A DNA stretch of 37,449 bases from IMG/VR virus record IMGVR_UViG_3300007734_000650, positions 1-37,449 of that record, one strand, 5' to 3'. The stretch is from a virus. The position numbers and the translations under genes were made by a program. This document shows, one piece after another, positions 1,796 to 27,083 of the stretch. The notes below the pieces were generated by a model. It had not been told where the DNA came from and made no database searches. It was given only the letters and a program-made list of their open reading frames with translations. Each line of letters begins with the position of its first letter. The first letter of the stretch is position 1.

Positions 1796-3915
1796 CGAGA
1801 ACCAGCAAACTCGCCTTCCGCCGCCAATAGACCGCGCAAAAGCCGATCCCTATCTTTTTGAACACGAGACTGTCTGAACCTGTCCAAAACCATTTGACGC
1901 AGTAAACCACGACCGCCGTCATTCTCGCCGGTTGTTAACAGAATGTCCGCAAGCTCTTTGCGAACGGACGGTGTATTGCCGCCCATAACATTCCCCGCGC
2001 CACGTAGAAACTGTCCGCCAGCACCAAGGAAATCGCCTCGTGCAAGCAAGCCAAAGACACGCGGATCAATCTGATTTTCTGCCTGATCTGCCAAATTATC
2101 CGCAGTCTGAGAACCGCCAATTGCCTGACGCCGCGTCTCAAACATTGTATTTTCGCGACCAAGACGATTGAAAATCTCATTCTGCTCGCCGGGACGCATT
2201 GGCCCCTGATATAGAGACAGTTCAGGCAATTCCTGCCGTGCTTTCATTGAGGTAAATTTACGCGCGGCATTGACCCCTTCTGCGCCACGCTCAATTCCCT
2301 CATTTAATCTATCGGCATATCCAACGCGGAAGCCTCTTTGCTCAGTAGGCGAGAGGTTTTGAAAATCGCCTATATTGTCTTCCGGTCGGCCTCGTGTAGC
2401 GGCGCTTTGACCACGACCCACAGCCTCTCTTTCAGCCGCCGGTCCTGCGTATGCGCGACGCGCTTGACCATAGAACGGATTAATCTGATCGAGGTGATTG
2501 ATATATGCCCGACGTAGCTGGTCAATAGCCCTTCCTTGCTCATCGAGAACCAAGCGTCCGGTCGTTTTATCACGATACGCCTCAAGCATATCGTCAAGAC
2601 CTATTTTCATCGCATTCAGAACGCGCATATTAGGACCAGCAGCCTGAACACCGGGCTGTTCCGCCGCCTCATTCAGCGCGCCAAGGGTGAAATCCGCTGC
2701 GTTATGATTTGCGGGATTGGTTGCCAAACTTTCAAGACGCTGCGTTTCAATACCCTGATTAAGCGCCTTACGCATAATAGGGTCATTCAGAAACGCTTCT
2801 GTTTCCTGCGTCCATTGAATGGGATACTCATTTGCCGCTCTATACAACGGACCAGCGTCAGATTGCGCCTGTCGCCTCAGTTGAGCGGTAGCCTGTCTGC
2901 CCGTGCGATTAGCGCCAAGACCCTCGTCGATAATATTGCCAACCCTCTCGGCCTGACCAGACTGTCTGGCATTCAGGAAATCTACAACTTGAGTTCTTCC
3001 CTCACCCGGCGCACGGGCTACAGTAGATAGAAGCCTCTGACCGGGATTACCCAAGGCGTCCGCAAGCGCAAACTCACCCTGTCCAGCGGCAGAAGCGTTG
3101 CCCATGTCATAGAACAAATCCCTGACAGACCGACCGCTTTCGCCTACAGCACGAGCCACACGCGCGCGAGCCGCGCCCTGCGGATCAATCGCAGACATGA
3201 CGTTTGAAACAACCGGCGACGCCGCCATGCCGATACCGCGACCAACAGCGGGAATACCCGCGCCAAGCAAGCCGCCTAACGCAGCGCCAGACGCCGCGCC
3301 GGAAAAGCGCCCCTCGTCCTCGCCGGTCAGAAATCCCGTAGCACCGCCATACCCAGCGCCTTCCGTTCCCATAGCCGCTATGCGTGGCAGAAGCCTTTGG
3401 CCCTCTTTGACAAGCGTAGCGCCACCTCGAGCAAGTGTGCCGCCAGAAAGAACGCCGCCAGCTAACTCTGCAATATCGCCCCCTAGTCCGGTCTTCTCGT
3501 CAGAGCGACGCAGCCGCTCATTCTGGAATGCCTTCGAATATTTATAACCCTCAACAGGATTAAACGTCCTGTTCTCGATCATAGCCATAGGCGTTTCAGC
3601 CAAGGCCAGCGCCTCGTCGCTCCCGCCAAACGTCATGCCCTGCAAGAGCTTTTGACCAGCGCCCGCGTCAAGCAAACCTAGCTTTTCCTGTCTGTCAGCC
3701 TTCGATTTTGCGGCAGACTGATACTGGTCGAGTTTTGGCTCATTTGGCTTTTCAGTTTGAGTAACGACTGGCTGTGGCGTCGGGATCGCAGATTTTACGC
3801 CTTTGCCGATCTGATCACGGACATGCGCGACAAACGCATTCTGATCGTCAGGCGATAGATTGGCAAAATCGTCACCAACATTAATCAGGCCAACGCCGTC
3901 AATTTTTAGTTTCAT
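1792..3915 (-). CDS. Large ejection / internal virion protein
   Basis: 707 aa. An N-terminal segment (LSPDDQNAFVAHVRDQI) is followed by a Gly/Ala-rich hydrophobic stretch (about residues 150-235: ELAGGVLSGGTLARGG, ATGFLTGEDEGRFSG, ALGGLLGAGIPAVGRGIG) that could insert into membrane. A long Gln/Arg/Ala-rich helical region follows. The size, position after the tail hub and glycine-zipper segment fit proteins ejected with DNA by P22-like phages (gp16-type role), although no direct homologue is recognised by eye. The ATG overlaps the previous gene's stop by 4 nt, so it is translationally coupled. Confidence 0.65.
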   Translation of the reverse strand: MKLKIDGVGLINVGDDFANLSPDDQNAFVAHVRDQIGKGVKSAIPTPQPVVTQTEKPNEPKLDQYQSAAKSKADRQEKLGLLDAGAGQKLLQGMTFGGSDEALALAETPMAMIENRTFNPVEGYKYSKAFQNERLRRSDEKTGLGGDIAELAGGVLSGGTLARGGATLVKEGQRLLPRIAAMGTEGAGYGGATGFLTGEDEGRFSGAASGAALGGLLGAGIPAVGRGIGMAASPVVSNVMSAIDPQGAARARVARAVGESGRSVRDLFYDMGNASAAGQGEFALADALGNPGQRLLSTVARAPGEGRTQVVDFLNARQSGQAERVGNIIDEGLGANRTGRQATAQLRRQAQSDAGPLYRAANEYPIQWTQETEAFLNDPIMRKALNQGIETQRLESLATNPANHNAADFTLGALNEAAEQPGVQAAGPNMRVLNAMKIGLDDMLEAYRDKTTGRLVLDEQGRAIDQLRRAYINHLDQINPFYGQARRAYAGPAAEREAVGRGQSAATRGRPEDNIGDFQNLSPTEQRGFRVGYADRLNEGIERGAEGVNAARKFTSMKARQELPELSLYQGPMRPGEQNEIFNRLGRENTMFETRRQAIGGSQTADNLADQAENQIDPRVFGLLARGDFLGAGGQFLRGAGNVMGGNTPSVRKELADILLTTGENDGGRGLLRQMVLDRFRQSRVQKDRDRLLRGLLAAEGEFAGSR

Positions 3916-5096
3916 TGAAGGCTCCAGCCAATGTTCGGAACACCGCCATTATCTGGACGGTAGTATGTGCCGCCGCGTAGCTCGCCAGCGCGCTTTTTAT
4001 TAAATTCGAGGCGCTTCTGAGCCATTTGAATAGCTCGATCGTAAATCTTCTGACGCTCAGCGTCGGGCAAAGCAGAAGAACCGGAAAGCTGCAATATGAT
4101 TGCGCGCTCGCCTTCCGTGGGATTGCCGCCAAACACTGATTTCAGCGAGGCCAAGGCGTTGCCGCCAACAATGTTATCAAGATCAACAGTATCTTGTGCG
4201 CCTTGAACAAATGGCGCTAATACGCCTGAAGTCATTGACCCAACTTTATTGCCCCAAGCCTTCTTGCTGGCTTCTTTAGCCTGACCTAGCGCATTAATAG
4301 CAGCCTCATTCGTTGCTACCATTTCGTCGGCTTCAAGAATTGCTTTTTTATCAGAGGCAGAAAGCGGCTGCGCGTCTTCACGCGGATATTTGCCTGTATT
4401 AATGAACTGCTGATTTTTTGGGTCTTTAATATCGCCGCCCTGTTCCGTAATCAGCTTTGTGCGAGCATTAACGCCCTGCAAGAATTCCTGACCCTTATCC
4501 GGCTGCTCTGTTACATTCTGCACATGCGGAAGGCCACTTGCGTCAATCCAGACGGGTTTATTCCGCAATGGCTCAGGAACCTCTTCCGGCGACGCCCAGT
4601 GACCGGTTTGAGGCTTCGGCGCGTCAGGTATGCCCGGAATAGGACTTGCCCCTGCCTGCGGATTATTCTTATCGTAAAACAGCGCCCGTCCATTAGCGGT
4701 TACGGTGGCATAATCAGGCTGGCTTGCCTTGGCCTGTAGAGCCTTCAGACGCGCGTTCATGATCTCGCGCTGGTTAGCTAGGCCCTGCTGCGATTGGACC
4801 GTCTGTAGCCCCTGCAAGAGGCCCTGACCCACGTTCCTGCCGGTCATTAGGCCAGCGCCAAGCGCGACAAGCGCGTCACCCGGACCGCCAGCGCCGTAAA
4901 TGTTCCGCATAGCGCCTTCGGGATCAAATCCGGTCTGTTCCGCTTCCGGCTGTTTATTGAGAAGACCCATACCCGGTTGCGGCTGTGGCTGCGGCTGGAC
5001 AGCCGGTTGCCGCATTTGCGTGAAAGCAGGCAAAGCAAGGCCGATACGTGGAGCCATGTCAGGCTCAAATCTGCCGGTCATAGGATTGTAAGCCAT
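3912..5096 (-). CDS. Putative ejection / internal virion protein
   Basis: 394 aa. A Pro/Gln-rich N-terminus (PQPQPQPGMGLL, about residues 35-47) is followed by Gly/Ala-rich segments (GALVALGAGLM-like, GQGLLQGLQTVQSQQ) and a helical C-terminal half. The segment LQLSGSSALPDAERQKIYDR is typical of internal virion proteins in podophage tail modules. It lies between two other candidate ejection proteins, with 4-nt overlap to the next gene. The assignment rests on order, composition and size; the function is inferred. Confidence 0.6.
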   Translation of the reverse strand: MAYNPMTGRFEPDMAPRIGLALPAFTQMRQPAVQPQPQPQPGMGLLNKQPEAEQTGFDPEGAMRNIYGAGGPGDALVALGAGLMTGRNVGQGLLQGLQTVQSQQGLANQREIMNARLKALQAKASQPDYATVTANGRALFYDKNNPQAGASPIPGIPDAPKPQTGHWASPEEVPEPLRNKPVWIDASGLPHVQNVTEQPDKGQEFLQGVNARTKLITEQGGDIKDPKNQQFINTGKYPREDAQPLSASDKKAILEADEMVATNEAAINALGQAKEASKKAWGNKVGSMTSGVLAPFVQGAQDTVDLDNIVGGNALASLKSVFGGNPTEGERAIILQLSGSSALPDAERQKIYDRAIQMAQKRLEFNKKRAGELRGGTYYRPDNGGVPNIGWSLQ

Positions 5097-5108
5097 TCTA
5101 CGTCGTCC

Positions 5109-6035
5109 TTATGCCCATTTGAACAGGCTAGACCAGCCGCCGCCGCCCTTAGCCACGTTGCCCGCCAATCCAAGGCCAGCCATGCCCGCACCCAAGGCTA
5201 CCTGACCAGCGCTTGGCGTCGGCGTGTATTGCTGCGGGCTAATGCCGACACTGGTAGAGGTGCCGCTGCTCGTGCCGCCCATAGAGCCAATGCCCTGTGC
5301 GATCTGGGCCAGATTGCCAACGCGCGCCCACGGTGCCTGATTGGCCGCGTCAATCTGGGCTTGGCGGTAATCCATTCTTTCAGCGCCCACACCCTTCTGC
5401 GTCTGAGCGTCGGAATAGAGCGGCGTTTGCAGATTATTCAGAGCGCCACCGGCATTGTAGATATTTGCCACTCCTTGCTGGCCAATTCCAGCCATTTGCC
5501 CGATAGCATTAAGCTGGTTGCCCTGCTGCTGAAGATAATCGTTATATCTTGCGCTCGTGCCAATCCCGGCCAGTTCGCGTCCCAATGTTCCGGCATATGC
5601 GCCTGAACCATAACGACCGGCAGACGAGAAATTTGCATTTACCCGATCAGCCGCTTCCTGCTGTGATTTGCCAATAATAGCGTCGAGATAAGGATTATTA
5701 TTGATATACGCGCCACTGGCATACGGGTTGAGATAATCCAGAGCCTGTTGCGTAGGTGCGCCGATCCCGCCACTATTGAGGATATTCTGTATCCCGCCAA
5801 TGCCGGTCTGAGCCGCATTCGACATAGACCCACGATTGGCAATGCCTAACTGTGCGTTCTGGCCCGCTGTGACATTAGGGTCCATTTCCGCGACTTGCGG
5901 ACCCTGATATGTCGTGTTGTAGGCGTTCATTGCGCCTGAGAGCGCCTGATTTAACGCGCCAGAAGCCGGTGCCCACGGATTGCGCGTCTCGTTTGTGCTT
6001 GTCGTCTGGGTTGTCGGGTTATACTGCCAAGCCAT
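5109..6035 (-). CDS. Putative ejection / tail-associated protein
   Basis: 308 aa, rich in Gly, Ala, Asn and Gln. The central part has a motif seen in phage DNA-transfer proteins (ANFSSAGRYGSGAYAGTLGRE, about residues 134-153), and the C-terminus is hydrophobic and Gly-rich (ALGAGMAGLGLAGNVAKGGGG). It is the first of three consecutive candidate ejection proteins after the tail-hub genes. The precise role is inferred. Confidence 0.6.
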   Translation of the reverse strand: MAWQYNPTTQTTSTNETRNPWAPASGALNQALSGAMNAYNTTYQGPQVAEMDPNVTAGQNAQLGIANRGSMSNAAQTGIGGIQNILNSGGIGAPTQQALDYLNPYASGAYINNNPYLDAIIGKSQQEAADRVNANFSSAGRYGSGAYAGTLGRELAGIGTSARYNDYLQQQGNQLNAIGQMAGIGQQGVANIYNAGGALNNLQTPLYSDAQTQKGVGAERMDYRQAQIDAANQAPWARVGNLAQIAQGIGSMGGTSSGTSTSVGISPQQYTPTPSAGQVALGAGMAGLGLAGNVAKGGGGWSSLFKWA

Positions 6036-18100: not shown

Positions 18101-18467
18101 TCGGACGCGGAACGCCTGTGTTAATCACGATAGGACTGTTTTCTATTCCGCCATGCTCAAGGCGGCTTGTGTCTTTCCAGCCTAGACGGGTCTTGGTCCA
18201 GAAGATTGCAGCCGCTGTAGAGCGCGGGTCGTCTTTAGTGGCTTGGCGGAACAGATTGCCCACAACCATTGCGTGAGCCTTTGCGCCGCCAGACTTTAGC
18301 TCATCGCGGAAATACTTACGCAGAGTCTCGTCAGAGCAGCCGATTGCGTATGCGATTGCGTCTTGCTGAAAACCACCCGCCGCCATAACGCTCACGATCC
18401 GGCGCTGATCTTCCGTTGGCTCAAAGCGTGGCCGACCGCCCTTGTTAATTTCCGGCTGATCTTCCAC
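18087..18467 (-). CDS. terS: Terminase small subunit
   Basis: 126 aa. An N-terminal helix-turn-helix (PTEDQRRIVSVMAAGGFQQD, AIAYAIGCSDETLRKYF, about residues 17-55) of the DNA-recognition type is followed by a helical oligomerisation region and a flexible C-terminal tail. It lies immediately upstream of terL with overlapping reading frames, the standard arrangement. It would bind the pac site. Confidence 0.8.
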   Translation of the reverse strand: MEDQPEINKGGRPRFEPTEDQRRIVSVMAAGGFQQDAIAYAIGCSDETLRKYFRDELKSGGAKAHAMVVGNLFRQATKDDPRSTAAAIFWTKTRLGWKDTSRLEHGGIENSPIVINTGVPRPNAGD

Positions 18468-19155
18468 TCTTTACCTCAACATTTGGAGCGTTCAGGTCGG
18501 CGCTACCCCGCCGCTGTTCCGAATGGTATCCGGCCATCGCTTGCTTTGAACGCTTGGGATACGGTTTTGCTAAAGGCAAAATTTTTGCGCGCATTTCTGC
18601 ATTAAGAGGCATTAAATACCTGTGTTTACCGGGGACCGATACCGCAATCGCATATTTGTCTAGGTTTTTCTTAACCCAACTAATGTTTTGTATGCCACCT
18701 TTAGCACCTACGCTTCTTGGGTGCGTCAATTTACCGTTTATTTTGAAAAACGTAGCCGGATCACCTTGACCAGAATATATCCAATTTGTTGCTTGATATA
18801 TCCCGCCATGATGACCTTGTGATTGGTCTGCAAATGAAACAATCAGCTTAAAATCAGCGTGCTCAGTTTTGAGACATCTTATGGCAATTGCCATAATTTT
18901 GCTGACTGGTGTTTTATGATTTGTAAGCGCCACCCGGACCAATTCGCATCCTTCTGTTTGTTTTAAACCGTAAGGTTTCAGAAGGTTAGGCGTTGCACCA
19001 CGACCAAAAATAATTGCGCCAATAAATTGCCCAGCTTCCCACGCGCCCACTTTTACAAGCTTTCCCACAGGCAGACATTTGCTGTAATGCCAATTTTCGC
19101 AAGCATACTTGGCCGCCTCATGCGTGGCCCAATCTATCTTTAAATCAACCGCCAT
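18445..19155 (-). CDS. Mom-like DNA modification protein
   Basis: 236 aa from the ATG at 19155. It matches the outline of phage Mu Mom and relatives, GNAT-fold enzymes that modify adenine in DNA and block restriction: an early ENWHYSKCLPVGKLVKVGAW (residues 18-37), FIGAIIFGRGATPNLLKPYG, CELVRVAL, the signature SFADQSQGHHGGIYQATNW, and a late KHRYLMPL. It overlaps terS by 23 nt and the ParB-like gene by 11 nt, so it would be expressed just before packaging. Parts of it are more A/T-rich than neighbours. Modification chemistry is inferred from the family. Confidence 0.75.
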   Translation of the reverse strand: MAVDLKIDWATHEAAKYACENWHYSKCLPVGKLVKVGAWEAGQFIGAIIFGRGATPNLLKPYGLKQTEGCELVRVALTNHKTPVSKIMAIAIRCLKTEHADFKLIVSFADQSQGHHGGIYQATNWIYSGQGDPATFFKINGKLTHPRSVGAKGGIQNISWVKKNLDKYAIAVSVPGKHRYLMPLNAEMRAKILPLAKPYPKRSKQAMAGYHSEQRRGSADLNAPNVEVKSGRSAGN

Positions 19156-19678
19156 GCTTGCGCGCGTCAAAGTCTTGGCCGCAATGCGGGCATTGAATGA
19201 TTTTAGGCGACAACTCGTCCAACTTGCCTTGATCGTCCAACGATCCCGGCTCAAAGTTAGGCTCGTCGAATAGCGCGGACATTTCACCCACGCCAAAGCC
19301 GGTGAGGGAAATATCAAAGTCCAGCGCGCCTAGATCGCCCAGCTCGACCTTCAACATATCGCGGTCCCAACCGGCGTTTTCCGCCAGCTTGTTATCCGCG
19401 AGGACGTAAGCCCGCTTCTGCCCCTCAGACCAGCCCGCAGCGACCATAACCGGCACTTCCGTCAGACCTAGCTTCTTAGCCGCCATAACGCGCCCGTGGC
19501 CCGCTATAAGCCCGCCCTGCTCGTCTATCAGGATCGGAACCGTCCAGCCCCATTCCCGGATAGACGCGGCGATCTGGTCTACCTGTTCCGGCGAGTGCGT
19601 CCGGGCGTTTCTCGCATACGGTATAAGCGCATTGATATTGCGCCGTTCTACCTTATCGGCAGGCCATTCTCGTTTCAT
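19145..19678 (-). CDS. ParB/Srx-fold domain protein with C-terminal CxxC
   Basis: 177 aa. The N-terminal ParB-like nuclease domain has NARTHSPEQVDQIAASIREW, then GGLIAGHGRVMAAKKLGLTE (GxGR motif, residues about 55-74). The C-terminus has a single CPHCGQDF knuckle. In many phages this domain is fused to a DNA methyltransferase; here it overlaps a Mom-like gene, suggesting a two-protein DNA-modification unit. It is not a partition ParB: there is no HTH and no ParA. Confidence 0.7.
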   Translation of the reverse strand: MKREWPADKVERRNINALIPYARNARTHSPEQVDQIAASIREWGWTVPILIDEQGGLIAGHGRVMAAKKLGLTEVPVMVAAGWSEGQKRAYVLADNKLAENAGWDRDMLKVELGDLGALDFDISLTGFGVGEMSALFDEPNFEPGSLDDQGKLDELSPKIIQCPHCGQDFDARKHGG

Positions 19679-21494: not shown

Positions 21495-21558
21495 AACCGT
21501 CGTTTCCTGTTGCAACACTTATCAGAGGTAAATAGACTCGCTTTTCAGGAGCAAGCCC

Positions 21559-22569: not shown

Positions 22570-22770
22570 TTAATCCCTCTTAATCCAGTGAGACGGGAAA
22601 CGTAACGGGCTGTCCTGTAGCGCCCGTGAGACTTCTGAGGCTAACGGCCCGGCGGGCTTGCGGAATACCTGATCTTTGAGAGGCGGCTTTCTGCCTTCCC
22701 GCTTCCGAGGCATGATCTTGCGCTTTTCAATAGCAACAGAAGGTTTGCCTACGTCCCATATGCCGCTCAT
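22570..22770 (-). CDS. Small basic hypothetical protein
   Basis: 66 aa from the ATG at 22770, which overlaps the upstream stop (ATGA). Rich in Lys/Arg/Pro (KRKIMPRKREGRKPPLKDQV). No family is recognised. It is coupled within the early left operon. Confidence 0.5.
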   Translation of the reverse strand: MSGIWDVGKPSVAIEKRKIMPRKREGRKPPLKDQVFRKPAGPLASEVSRALQDSPLRFPSHWIKRD

Positions 22771-23291
22771 TCGTTCGCCGCCTGTTTGATTTCTACCGGG
22801 AACCACCAGCCGCCCTTCTTATCGACAGGCGGCTCACGGTTCTTTTCTGCCCTATACACGGCTGCGTAACGCGGCCAATCTGGCGAGGATTGCAGGACGT
22901 AAATCCCGTTATTAGACGCCACAATCTTAAGTTCCGGCTGTGCGTGGCCTTCAAACCGCTTTTTGCTCAGAAACCGGACGGCATGAACGGGTCGATACCA
23001 TTCCGCATTTGCCTTGCAGTATTCCTTGAACCTCGGGATCGCCTGCATGGCTAGACCGCGCTCAGTCTCGTCTATCTTCTGCCATTGCTGCCACGCTTCA
23101 TGCTTGCTCATATTCGGATCAGTCGGATAAGCCTGCCAGAACGCCTCGAACTCCGCGCTGTAAGCCGCCTTCACCCGCGTCGTCTTGATAGCTGTCTTTC
23201 CCGCAATAGCCGCAGCTACGCGGCCAACCAGTTCCGGCGGAACATTGGCCGAGATCAAATCAGCAATCAGGACAGCAACGGGATCAGACAC
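22767..23291 (-). CDS. Replication-associated protein (phage O / helicase-loader-like C-domain)
   Basis: 174 aa. The segment EFEAFWQAYPTDPNMSKHEA followed by WQQWQKI (about residues 47-73) is the short helical motif repeated in many phage replication-initiation proteins. The C-terminal part has a Trp-rich end (KKGGWWFPVEIKQ). With the DnaA-domain-IV-like gene two positions upstream it may help recruit host replication machinery. No helicase or polymerase is encoded, so host enzymes must be used. Confidence 0.5.
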   Translation of the reverse strand: MSDPVAVLIADLISANVPPELVGRVAAAIAGKTAIKTTRVKAAYSAEFEAFWQAYPTDPNMSKHEAWQQWQKIDETERGLAMQAIPRFKEYCKANAEWYRPVHAVRFLSKKRFEGHAQPELKIVASNNGIYVLQSSPDWPRYAAVYRAEKNREPPVDKKGGWWFPVEIKQAANE

Positions 23292-23886
23292 GCTGCATTT
23301 CCTTTATTCTGGAATTGCTGATTGGCGCTGTGCGGTAATAGGCCAGCGCATGGTGCTGACAGCAGTAGACGCGACCCGGCTCAGCATAATCGCCGCAGAA
23401 GCGGAAATTGTCGTGCCTCGGATCGCCTACAGGCCAGCGGCATGTGTGTGGCGTCAATTCCATTAGCGTTACGCCGCCGGACGCTGCAAATGATTGATAC
23501 GTTTCCCGCTTGGGTGATTTGTATTCCTTTGAAGGAACCAGATTTACCACCTTGTCAGGCGCTGAAAACTCACTTGCCTGGCGCATAATATATTTCGTAA
23601 CCGTGCGTGAACTACGTCCTATTTCTTTAGCTATAGCTAAAGTGCCAAGGCCATGTTTTCGCAACGCAAAAATGCGCGCGACTTCCTCCTCAGATATTGG
23701 CGGCGCACCGAAACGTTGAAGATCAGGACTGTTCGCGTCTCTTAGATTTTTCTGCCTGCCGTAACGGCCTATCACAGCGTTCTTGGTCTTACCCAGAACA
23801 GCTGCTATTTGTGAAAATGTTAATCCCTCGAGACGCAAGGCAAACAGCTTATCGTCTGTCTCACGGTTCCACGACGTTTCTTCCAT
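23284..23886 (-). CDS. GcrA-like cell-cycle transcription regulator
   Basis: 200 aa from the ATG at 23886. The N-terminal ~45 residues (RLEGLTFSQIAAVLGKTKNA, then VIGRYGRQ) match the GcrA DNA-binding helix-turn-helix. The C-terminal end (CRWPVGDPRHDNFRFCG, YCCQHHALAYY) matches the conserved Cys/His segment of GcrA. A second HTH-like stretch (LRKHGLGTLAIAKEIGRSSR, ~75-95) is an extra. GcrA is an alphaproteobacterial sigma70 co-regulator linked to methylated GANTC promoters. Overlaps the preceding gene by one base. Confidence 0.8.
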   Translation of the reverse strand: MEETSWNRETDDKLFALRLEGLTFSQIAAVLGKTKNAVIGRYGRQKNLRDANSPDLQRFGAPPISEEEVARIFALRKHGLGTLAIAKEIGRSSRTVTKYIMRQASEFSAPDKVVNLVPSKEYKSPKRETYQSFAASGGVTLMELTPHTCRWPVGDPRHDNFRFCGDYAEPGRVYCCQHHALAYYRTAPISNSRIKEMQRV

Positions 23887-24455
23887 TACGCCCCCCAATA
23901 TGTTTGATCGTCGTCTGCCGAGATTATTTTGCCACGAAGAATTGCAACACTGAGCGCGACTGCGGGATTTTCCGTAATGTTCTTTTCCATGCGATCTATG
24001 CCATATCTGACGGTTGAACGATCCCGGCGGTAATATCTAGCGATTTCTTTAATCGTTGATCCGGCTACGTGATAGCAAAGCCAAAAAGCCACATATTTCG
24101 GAAGAACAAAAACGTGTGGCGATTTAATCCGTTCGTCTATTGGCCTGCGATTTCTTAACAAATCTTCCCTTGTCACATTGTAATGCACGCAAACATTTTC
24201 GGTTATCAAATTCACACATATGGCTACTTTAGCCTTCCTCTCACGTTTTCGTTTTGCAATTTCCTTGCGTTCCGCCCATGACGGCCGTACCCGTAATTGT
24301 ATTTCTGCTAACTCGGGGACAGGCTCATCTTCCGTCAATGGGATTGGCTTTTCTGCAATCGGACGCGAGACGCATACAATCGGCTTTGTCTGAACAAAGC
24401 CCATGCGTTTTCTACGTTCCTTCGCAGCCTCGGCCATTTCACGCGCCAAACTCAT
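23886..24455 (-). CDS. DnaA domain IV-like DNA-binding protein
   Basis: 189 aa. The N-terminal half is basic and low in complexity (ERKEIAKRKRERKAKVAICV). The C-terminal ~95 residues resemble DnaA domain IV: VCVHYNVTREDLLRNRRP, PKYVAFWLCYHVAGSTIKEI, then ARYYRRDRSTVRYGIDRME. The last corresponds to the DnaA signature GGRDHTTV, with Arg in place of His. There is no AAA+ ATPase domain. It could bind DnaA boxes on phage or host DNA. The ATG overlaps the RusA stop. Confidence 0.75.
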   Translation of the reverse strand: MSLAREMAEAAKERRKRMGFVQTKPIVCVSRPIAEKPIPLTEDEPVPELAEIQLRVRPSWAERKEIAKRKRERKAKVAICVNLITENVCVHYNVTREDLLRNRRPIDERIKSPHVFVLPKYVAFWLCYHVAGSTIKEIARYYRRDRSTVRYGIDRMEKNITENPAVALSVAILRGKIISADDDQTYWGA

Positions 24456-24862
24456 TTCTTTACCTCAAGCGCAGATACAACGTGAATTTTTGTTCCCTCG
24501 TCGCTTACCTTTGCAACCTCAATCCGCTGGCAATATCTGTCGTCGTCGCAGATACCCGCCTGCACCAAGGCGTCCTCGTAAGCCTTGATCGTGTTTGAGA
24601 TATCCATTCTGCATTTACTCGGCAGAAGAATACGCAATCCAAACGGACCCTCAACACGACACGGCTTTTGTTCCTCAATCATAGCCTGTGCTTCACGCGA
24701 CCATTTCTGATATTTGAAGGAACGCACCCGCACAGCCTTTCCACCTTTGTTAAAGGCTATAAAAAGCTCATTGGTACTGATCGGCGGCGGCATACGCAAA
24801 GTCACCCATTGCGCCGTCTCGCGCTGTATTTTGGGTTTTTTGTTTTCAGCCGCGCGCCGCAT
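24452..24862 (-). CDS. RusA-family Holliday junction resolvase
   Basis: 136 aa. The N-terminus TLRMPPPISTNELFIAFNKG and the acidic active-site pattern SKCRMDISNTIKAYEDALVQ, AGICDDDRYCQRI (D..N..K...D.L...DD) are diagnostic of RusA. It resolves branched DNA before packaging. It lies between the DnaA-IV-like and GapR-like genes in the early left operon. Confidence 0.85.
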   Translation of the reverse strand: MRRAAENKKPKIQRETAQWVTLRMPPPISTNELFIAFNKGGKAVRVRSFKYQKWSREAQAMIEEQKPCRVEGPFGLRILLPSKCRMDISNTIKAYEDALVQAGICDDDRYCQRIEVAKVSDEGTKIHVVSALEVKK

Positions 24863-24870
24863 AGTGCCGC

Positions 24871-25134
24871 CTAAAACGGGAGATCAATCTGCAAGGCGTT
24901 CTGATAAAGCGCCAGTGTTTCTGCCTTCAGCTTTTCACGCGCTCGCTTCTTGTCGTCCATTAGCTGCTTACGGACGATTGACTTGATCGCGTGCGCCTCG
25001 TATCCGGTAGAAGACGCCTCTTGAAGGATATCGCGTATATCCTCACTCAGAGTGCGCCGTTGTTCTTCTTTCGACACCAATCTGTCGATAAATTCCTGCA
25101 ACGCGCCTGCGTCTACACAATTGCTAATCGTCAT
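24871..25134 (-). CDS. GapR-like nucleoid protein (DUF2312)
   Basis: 87 aa from the ATG at 25134, chosen because AAGGAG lies 7 nt upstream. It follows the GapR/DUF2312 outline: ALQEFIDRLVSKEEQRRTLS, EDIRDILQEASSTGYEAHAI, then KSIVRKQLMD and a final helix ETLALYQNAL. GapR is an alphaproteobacterial protein that binds overtwisted DNA ahead of replication and transcription. A phage copy could assist phage replication or compete with the host protein. Confidence 0.8.
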   Translation of the reverse strand: MTISNCVDAGALQEFIDRLVSKEEQRRTLSEDIRDILQEASSTGYEAHAIKSIVRKQLMDDKKRAREKLKAETLALYQNALQIDLPF

Positions 25135-25486
25135 TATCTGCTCCTTCATGATCTGCTAAAGCCTCAGCGTCCGCACCAGCCATAAAATCAGCCGTGCGAA
25201 CGAGACGCTTGCCAAGTTCGCTTTTCGCATTAGTCAGCCTTCTTTCGTGCAGTAGGGAATTAAGACCCTTATTTAATTCTGCCTCGTACGCATTACGCAG
25301 TTTCTCATACATACTGACGTATAAATCCTTCGGTGGCCTGTAGAGGCAGGACCACATGAGATTATACGGGACGCCATACCTGTTACTGATACGCCGCATT
25401 GCGTTTATTCTGTCTCCCGTTCCACGGCTTTCGCGGTGGATCATGGCCTTTATCCATTTTGTGGCTTCTTCAACGGCCTTACTCAT
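25124..25486 (-). CDS. Hypothetical early protein
   Basis: 120 aa from the ATG at 25486. It starts MSKAVEEATKWIKAMIHRES and contains INAMRRISNRYGVPYNLMWS, a helix-turn-helix-like stretch, followed by helical charged residues. The C-terminus is acidic (ADHEGADNDD). Family unknown. Its end overlaps the start of the GapR-like gene by 11 nt, so the two are co-translated. Confidence 0.6.
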   Translation of the reverse strand: MSKAVEEATKWIKAMIHRESRGTGDRINAMRRISNRYGVPYNLMWSCLYRPPKDLYVSMYEKLRNAYEAELNKGLNSLLHERRLTNAKSELGKRLVRTADFMAGADAEALADHEGADNDD

Positions 25487-25539
25487 TGGCAAGCTCTTTT
25501 TGCACTTTCCGCAAACACGCGCATGTCACTGTAAGACAT
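25483..25539 (-). CDS. Tiny upstream ORF (18 aa)
   Basis: An ATG at 25539 opens MSYSDMRVFAESAKRACQ and stops on the ATGA that begins the next gene. The coupling geometry is like that of real genes in this operon. No ribosome site is obvious and the length is minimal, so this may be a leader peptide or chance. Confidence 0.25.
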   Translation of the reverse strand: MSYSDMRVFAESAKRACQ

Positions 25540-25906: not shown

Positions 25907-26118
25907 AGGCTCAATTCCTTCTTGAGCTTACGGACATGAGACGCGGCGTGTTCCTCGCCATGTTCACACGCGCAGTCGCTGTATTCTGCGACCAGTTCCA
26001 TTGGCACCCAGAGCGGCACGAGAATGCCCTTGCGCGCGGCTTTAACGAGCGCGGTCTGGTATGCGCCCTCAGCAGCGCGAGGGATTGGCCAGCAGGCTAT
26101 TTGCGAGGCGCTAATCAT
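25903..26118 (-). CDS. Small hypothetical early protein
   Basis: 71 aa: MISASQIACWPIPRAAEGAY, helical middle with a Cys/His cluster (SDCACEHGEEHAASH) that could bind metal. It overlaps the Cro-like stop by 4 nt, so it is the second gene of the early left transcript. Function unknown. Confidence 0.55.
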   Translation of the reverse strand: MISASQIACWPIPRAAEGAYQTALVKAARKGILVPLWVPMELVAEYSDCACEHGEEHAASHVRKLKKELSL

Positions 26119-26327
26119 GCCGCCTCGGTGCTTTGCGGAGGCGGATATATGTCCGGTCGTATTTCATGGCGCGGCACGCCAGTTACGCGCTCTACGTCAA
26201 GCACTCGCCTAACAGGTATTTGGCAACGCAGTCGCCAAGAAGACACCGTGGCAATCGGCACATTGAGGTCGCGCGCAACCTTCGTGAGACCGCCAGCCTT
26301 GTCTATAATCTGATCAACCGTATGCAT
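26115..26327 (-). CDS. Cro-like repressor (YdaS/Cro-type HTH)
   Basis: 70 aa from the ATG at 26327. Helix-turn-helix: VDQIIDKAGGLTKVARDLNV, PIATVSSWRLRCQIPVRRVL (residues 4-44), typical of Cro/YdaS-type regulators, with a short Pro-rich tail. It is the first gene leftward from the switch and faces the CI-like gene. The start codon lies about 7 nt after the -10 element, so the mRNA is probably leaderless. An upstream in-frame start at 26378 would place the promoter inside the gene, so the later start is preferred. Confidence 0.75.
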   Translation of the reverse strand: MHTVDQIIDKAGGLTKVARDLNVPIATVSSWRLRCQIPVRRVLDVERVTGVPRHEIRPDIYPPPQSTEAA

Positions 26328-26333
26328 GAGCGC

Positions 26334-26362
26334 AATATGCAGAATGCATAGCTGCTTGTCAA
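26334..26362 (-). promoter_or_regulatory. Early leftward promoter (PR-like) for cro operon
   Basis: On the minus strand TTGACA (26362-26357), a 17-bp spacer, and CATATT (26339-26334) form a strong sigma70-type promoter, with the expected start close to the Cro ATG at 26327. Two operator-like elements overlap it. Confidence 0.75.
26335..26350. promoter_or_regulatory. Operator 1 in immunity region
   Basis: ATATGCAGAATGCATA lies inside the PR-like promoter between its -10 and -35. It matches 14 of 16 positions of the palindrome at 27951-27966, indicating a site for the same repressor. Confidence 0.6.
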
Positions 26363-26375
26363 TGCGACATGCATA
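26361..26375. promoter_or_regulatory. Operator 2 in immunity region
   Basis: AATGCGACATGCATA touches the -35 of the leftward promoter and the likely -10 region of the CI-like gene (TACATT 26374-26379). It matches 11 of 15 positions of the TATGCATNATGCATA pattern. A further half site, TATGCAT (26321-26327), covers the Cro start codon. Confidence 0.5.
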
Positions 26376-26387
26376 CATTTTTTTGCA

Positions 26388-27083
26388 ATGAACCCAGTTA
26401 TGGAAGATTCAAACAAAGAAATTCACGAGCGGCTAAAATTGGCTCGCGAAAGACGCGGTTATGCTTCAGCTAAAGAGGCCGCGTCCGCAATGAGCGTAAG
26501 TTATCCTACGTACGCCGGACATGAAAACGGCAGTCGGGGCATTAAACGGCAAGATATTGTAAGATATGCGATTTTCTTTGGCGTAACGCCAAACTGGCTT
26601 CAATTTGGAGCAACAGTTAATGATCAAAAACCGATCCTACCTCGCAGAGCGCCTGTTGAAGAACTAATTACAAAGGTTCATGCTCCGCTTGGCGCTCGCG
26701 ATCTTCCCGTCTTTGCGGCCGTCGAAGGCGGAGATGGCGACTTGGTCATTTCAACGGAACCACTTGATTATGTTCAGCGACCTTGGTTTTTAGGCGAGGT
26801 CAAGGACGGGTTTGGCGTTATCGTAACCGGCGAAAGCATGTATCCGGCGTACGAGCCGGGTGATACCGCTATTGTAAACCCGCGCCTGCCTTACATGCGT
26901 GGCAAAATTCATATTTTTACAGCCGAGTCGGAGAATAGCCATTTTAAGGCAACTATTAAAAAACTAGTCGGCGTTACGGAAACACATTGGAAAGTTGAAC
27001 AATTTAACCCGCCGCACGTTTTTGAGCTTGACCGTAAAATCTGGACAAACGCTCGCCGGGTTGTTGGCAAATACAACGGGTAA
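26388..27083 (+). CDS. CI-like repressor with S24 peptidase domain
   Basis: 231 aa. An N-terminal XRE-type HTH (LKLARERRGYASAKEAASAM, SVSYPTYAGHENGSRGI, about residues 16-52) is joined to a LexA/CI-type C-terminal domain: catalytic Ser150 in VTGESMYPAYEPGD and the general-base Lys in ATIKKLVG (191/192). It maintains lysogeny and would be inactivated on RecA-stimulated self-cleavage. The start at 26388 is close behind the candidate -10, so the mRNA may be leaderless; MEDSN at 26400 is the alternative start. Confidence 0.85.
   Translation: MNPVMEDSNKEIHERLKLARERRGYASAKEAASAMSVSYPTYAGHENGSRGIKRQDIVRYAIFFGVTPNWLQFGATVNDQKPILPRRAPVEELITKVHAPLGARDLPVFAAVEGGDGDLVISTEPLDYVQRPWFLGEVKDGFGVIVTGESMYPAYEPGDTAIVNPRLPYMRGKIHIFTAESENSHFKATIKKLVGVTETHWKVEQFNPPHVFELDRKIWTNARRVVGKYNG

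Follow-up and report, generated by a model that had tools for sequence, protein, structure and literature searches.

Why would a temperate phage set cut-down or altered relatives of GcrA, DnaA and GapR, three proteins with which its hosts time replication and the genes of the cell cycle, next to one another in its early operon? The question is raised by a complete virus record from IMG/VR, 37,449 bp in length (the window). The phage is temperate and podovirus-like, and its host group is probably alphaproteobacterial. Its terminase resembles those of HTVC010P-type phages (46%) and has its best genome-contig match in a Xanthobacteraceae MAG (57%). The window, in which ORFs were called mechanically, also encodes a portal, a major head protein, an integrase, a RecE-like exonuclease and NinB. 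Of the answers considered, the one preferred here, with a probability of roughly 45%, is that the DnaA-like and GcrA-like proteins act as a pair of regulators that recruits sigma70 to phage promoters, possibly late ones. The relevant features are these:

26388..27083, plus strand: CI-type repressor (helix-turn-helix and peptidase S24; PF00717, phrog_4), divergent from the early operon
26115..26378, minus strand: Cro/YdaS-like regulator, first gene of the operon (PF15943, phrog_35)
25124..25492, minus strand: phrog_35370 protein (E=1e-21), no assigned function, directly upstream of the GapR-like gene
24871..25149, minus strand, ATG at 25134: GapR-like protein (PF10073)
24452..24862, minus strand: RusA-like Holliday junction resolvase (PF05866, 31.4 bits, cut-off 22.8; phrog_34)
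23886..24455, minus strand: DnaA-domain-IV-only protein, 189 residues (PF08299)
23910..24221, minus strand: predicted DnaA domain IV fold within it, residues 79-182 (VIA-align Z 16.5-16.9, rmsd 1.2)
23284..23898, minus strand, ATG at 23886: GcrA-like protein (PF07750)
23566..23694, minus strand: within the GcrA-like protein, a second helix-turn-helix inserted at residues 69-111 (PF13936/PF13384 matches; predicted model)
23335..23481, minus strand: within the GcrA-like protein, the sigma-interaction domain at residues 140-188 (sequence alignment to 7YE1/5YIX; structure alignment to 5YIX)
22767..23291, minus strand: replication-initiation/replisome-organiser-like protein, directly downstream of the GcrA-like gene (phrog_270, E=2e-5; phrog_26426)

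The leftward operon runs from cro through two small unknown genes, the phrog_35370 gene and the genes for the GapR-like protein, RusA, the domain-IV-only protein (DnaA_C) and the GcrA-like protein to the replication protein. A preliminary description of this DNA had grouped the three regulator genes with RusA, and they do form a cluster, all on the minus strand of one early operon and overlapping or nearly touching. The gap between the GapR-like and RusA genes is 8 bp, the RusA and DnaA_C genes overlap by 4 bp, and the DnaA_C stop codon and the GcrA-like ATG have one base in common (TAATG). The same one-base overlap of DnaA_C and GcrA genes in two other phage loci (L152 and L172) favors a paired function of their products.

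The family assignments of that description were confirmed by profile search, with all three ORFs exceeding their Pfam cut-offs: 88.1 bits against 26.9 for GcrA (PF07750), 37.8 against 31.5 for Bac_DnaA_C (PF08299) and 47.3 against 22.6 for GapR (PF10073). All three fall below the NCBIfam equivalog cut-offs of the host proteins (76.7 bits against 280 for the GcrA-like and 29.6 against 140 for the GapR-like protein), and they are thus members of these families rather than orthologs of the host proteins.

The GcrA-like protein has a PF07750 match that covers residues 9-191, spanning the N-terminal DNA-binding and C-terminal domains, and its sequence matches both the DNA-binding and the sigma-interaction domain of Caulobacter GcrA. 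The second helix-turn-helix sits between these two domains. In the predicted model, the C-terminal domain aligns with 5YIX, a crystal structure of the GcrA domain in complex with domain 2 of sigma70, over 48/48 residues at 40% identity (rmsd 1.9); the modest Z of 6.2 is backed by the sequence match to the same domain. The earlier proposal that sigma70 transcription is redirected to phage DNA is therefore plausible, and the sigma-interaction domain it calls for is kept; sigma70 binding itself would follow from this likeness.

Against the sigma70-recruiting pair stands the finding that no GcrA-target promoter was identifiable in the window, where GANTC is nearly absent (11 sites, with 93 expected from a Markov model or 136 from shuffles). 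GTAC is also scarce (12 versus about 70 expected), and both shortages probably reflect avoidance of restriction or of CcrM sites. A link between GANTC avoidance and carriage of GcrA was ruled out, the median observed/expected ratio being 0.56 with GcrA and 0.54 without. As separate observations, one GANTC site, at 21535, falls in the intergenic region (21520-21558) that precedes the leftward late operon, where it adjoins a TATTTA, a possible -10 element, and a Mom-like DNA modification gene adjoins a ParB-like gene at 18445-19678, so that the DNA of this phage may be chemically modified.

The DnaA-like protein was claimed to consist of the DNA-binding domain only, with RRDRSTV as its motif, and this holds: PF08299 is its sole DnaA match, and profile search found neither the PF00308 ATPase nor a DnaA_N domain in the protein. 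An AlphaFold model (mean pLDDT 85) superimposes its domain IV on 1J1V (Z 16.5, rmsd 1.2 Å over 93 residues) and 3PVP (Z 16.9, rmsd 1.2 over 96 residues), and as modeled it is genuinely a domain IV of the DnaA type without an ATPase. The residues that contact the DnaA box have largely changed. R399, D433 and T436 are kept, the substitutions are R407K, Q408Y, K415Y, P423K, H434R, T435S and L438R, and the basic loop carries an 8-residue insertion. That the protein is without ATPase and DnaA_N and has altered box contacts counts in favor of the sigma70-recruiting pair.

These substitutions also bear on the suggestion that the phage interferes with host replication. By binding DnaA sites of the host, at its origin or at promoters under DnaA control, DnaA_C would prevent host initiation, and GcrA and GapR would push the cell into a state resembling S phase. 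The phage DnaA_C set favors this proposal: among its 83 proteins, H434 is kept in 82/83, R407 in 82/83 and R399 in 76/83, counts to be read with the knowledge that one of the two scan patterns required RDH, and H434 is present in 11/11 DnaA_C loci reached through GapR, a sample free of the RDH bias. In addition, a domain IV without ATPase should bind an origin rather than open it. DnaA boxes are unenriched in the window (4 TTWTNCACA against 2.4 expected, no clusters), and box clusters were not found in related DnaA_C loci; exact TTATCCACA occurs 8 times against 2.3 expected in loci with a short DnaA_C, but the copies are scattered. Since clusters were not seen in phage DNA, the sites may be those of the host. 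Box contacts kept in the phage family and lost in the window protein make occupancy of oriC boxes reasonable for the family and poor for this member. For the window phage, the claim that DnaA boxes are occupied to block host initiation is left unsupported, and interference with host replication is an unlikely explanation of its locus.

The third member of the trio matches GapR structures in addition to the profile. In an alignment with positions placed provisionally by the Caulobacter GapR numbering, the GapR-like protein seems to keep about half of the basic DNA contacts, with K or R at 34, 42, 59 and 63 and the basic residue lost at 49, 56, 60 and 66. The basic DNA contacts described for GapR are K34, K42, K49, K56, K59, K60, R63 and K66 (PMC7498317).

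Whether these genes belong together can be judged from other phages. Single-protein scans returned no close relatives of the window trio. The only phage-database match to DnaA_C, MT836079.1 (L012, labeled Bacteriophage sp.), was rejected as a fragment of a bacterial chromosome, an origin region with a full dnaA and dnaN-, recF- and gyrB-like ORFs. An alignment-based GapR scan of IMG/VR confirmed at least 185 loci, and the best 80 contained DnaA_C in 11 and a GcrA-like gene in 9. A scan with phage DnaA_C proteins confirmed at least 445 contigs; among the best 80, 30 have GapR no more than 6 kb from DnaA_C (same strand in 28/30, within 1 kb in 19/30), 15 have GcrA in that range, and 7/80 contain the full trio. 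Such counts are minimum values for the roughly 6 kb around the gene. GapR falls from 22 in the first 40 DnaA_C loci to 8 in the last 40, a sign of seed bias.

The arrangement of the genes is more telling. In 11/15 cases GcrA directly touches the DnaA_C gene (P about 1e-8 if the chance of adjacency is 10%), mostly with spacings of -27 to +64 bp, which favors a joint action of the two products. The complete set of three families is encoded by 10 further loci (L144, L152, L172, L227, L235, L237, L248, L272, L276 and L278), some of them counted through weak GcrA matches. The tightest trio is that of L272 (GapR 3816-4118, DnaA_C 4183-4800, GcrA 4793-5224), where all three exceed their Pfam cut-offs. 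The phrog_35370 family is present in 17/80 DnaA_C loci, mostly directly upstream of DnaA_C; L188, for example, has the order phrog_35370-like (4485-4859), DnaA_C, RusA, GapR. Four adjacent GcrA-like genes (L172, L237, L227 and L235) have no sigma-interaction domain, which counts against the sigma70-recruiting pair. In L248 (1224-1928), a GcrA-type N-terminal helix-turn-helix is seemingly fused to an HNH-like C-terminal region, directly after DnaA_C. In several related phages, NusG/RfaH-like proteins are encoded between the replication genes and the terminase, at L017:8747-9379, L011:10249-10797, L105:12760-13365 and L170:7725-8285; none was recognized in the window.

Linkage of this kind in diverse phage loci answers the concern that the trio might not be conserved in relatives, and together with the profile placements it supports the description of these genes as a functional module. 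Carried as a linked set by many distant phages, these genes give the impression of a genuine module, for which turning on phage genes is the likeliest use.

In other phages a DnaA with its ATPase, in some cases with all domains, lies beside GapR or GcrA genes (L250:4582-6288, L247, L232, L231:5314-7084, L234, L241 and L243). The L231 protein combines PF00308 and PF08299, without domain I, and occupies the slot of DnaA_C with GcrA directly after it; a CI-type repressor gene lies upstream on the opposite strand and a phage-type methyltransferase gene nearby. In L250, a protein with DnaA_N, Bac_DnaA and Bac_DnaA_C is encoded directly after GapR and adjoins a phage-type methyltransferase gene. These larger proteins in the same slot suggest that the domain-IV-only proteins may be reduced forms of phage DnaA. 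They also point to replication rather than transcription, as does the position of the module directly upstream of a replication gene, and DnaA_C might accordingly mark the phage's own origin and start replication with the downstream replisome-organiser protein. This is improbable for the window protein, which has neither domain I nor the ATPase, and the lack of box enrichment in the window and of box clusters in it and in DnaA_C loci makes a nearby phage origin of the DnaA type less likely.

A final possibility is that separate small regulators merely share a common mosaic early region. Gene order does differ among phages, the full trio is confined to the seven loci given above among the best 80, and it was not found among 80 loci selected by TerL (DnaA_C in 2, GcrA in 0), where only L017 has GapR and DnaA_C, with RusA also present, and in L075 a short HTH-like protein precedes DnaA_C. 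This control was not matched by host, many of its loci being Desulfovibrio, and weight is therefore placed on the adjacency pattern and not on frequency ratios. Given the close spacing of DnaA_C and GcrA, the shared strand of GapR and the distance between the linked phages, whose DnaA_C proteins are 14-30% identical to that of the window, the absence of any joint function is rather unlikely.

Precedent for the sigma70-recruiting pair comes from the gene transfer agent activators GafA of Rhodobacter and GafY-GafZ of Caulobacter (PMC9638019, PMC11150451). In these systems a DnaA-like DNA-binding domain without ATPase is followed immediately by a partner that contacts RNA polymerase, or is fused with it, an arrangement that the window pair resembles, and phage-type gene clusters are the known targets that these proteins activate; GafY itself binds sigma70 (PMC11150451, PMC9638019). 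The loci differ, one being a phage early operon and the other the host mucR-gafYZ-sufE locus. The window DnaA_C shares R434 with GafY (GRDRTTV in GafY, RRDRSTV here) and a turn shorter by one residue, which suggested membership in that family. This was ruled out because numerous relatives in phages have RDHTT and by scores against a GafY profile, made from seven host candidates obtained via NCBIfam NF004687 and one more, several of them at the gafYZ locus as recognized by the neighboring sufE: the window protein scores 27 bits against this profile and 32 against a DnaA profile, whereas GafY members left out one at a time score 76-124. Kinship of the GcrA-like protein with GafZ was likewise rejected (profile probability of GafZ against GcrA, 0.1%). 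The precedent is weakened to this extent, and the window DnaA_C, though not itself a GafY, may by analogy work in a similar way.

Other known systems share single elements with the window locus. The GcrA homologue of phiCbK-like Caulobacter phages is also phage-encoded and has a conserved C-terminal motif (29-42% identity), but these are large lytic phages with no linked DnaA_C or GapR reported, and the second helix-turn-helix belongs to the window protein (PMC3556154). Roseophage RDJLphi1, of another phage group, has GafA beside a receiver-less CtrA, likewise a host cell-cycle regulator cut to its DNA-binding part, although it is CtrA instead of DnaA or GcrA (PMC6363796). Small domain-IV-only "DnaA C-terminal" proteins of uncultured Caudovirales are common in databases (BFVD/UniProt), but as annotation only; the literature searched mentions no linkage to GcrA or GapR. 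Prophages of the Sinorhizobium phiLM21-like type include GcrA (5), DnaA COG0593 (1) and UPF0335/GapR (1) among their genes, but these regulators are listed separately in a table and not as a module (PMC12429752). No description of the linked module was found in the literature searched, mostly outside subscription journals; the parts are known singly in phages.

Taken together, the sigma70-recruiting pair can be pictured as follows. The trio would be an early-operon regulatory module of a temperate phage, with DnaA_C and the GcrA-like protein translated as a coupled pair to give a two-part promoter-targeting device. DnaA_C would provide sequence-specific DNA binding with a specificity that has drifted from the DnaA box, and the GcrA-like protein would bind DNA by its two helix-turn-helix motifs and sigma70 domain 2 by its C-terminal domain. 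RNA polymerase would thereby be favored at selected promoters, which most likely serve the phase of phage transcription that comes next, and the GapR-like protein may assist by binding phage DNA that is being replicated or heavily transcribed. A broader and only tentative proposal is that alphaproteobacterial phages have repeatedly assembled a portable cell-cycle module of GcrA, GapR and DnaA or its DNA-binding domain, in which the coupled DnaA_C-GcrA pair would be a switch dedicated to directing sigma70 and the phage equivalent of GafY-GafZ, and domain-IV-only forms would descend from a complete, phage-borne DnaA.

Phage homologues of GcrA, DnaA and GapR had previously been recorded singly and were unexplained. 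A recurrent, coupled DnaA_C-GcrA pair offers a small, defined and testable system for studying how a phage programme is tied to the cell cycle of alphaproteobacteria. It can also be set beside the DnaA-like activators of gene transfer agents when asking where these came from. Phages with a complete DnaA at this position would allow a direct test of an initiator turning into a DNA-binding regulator.
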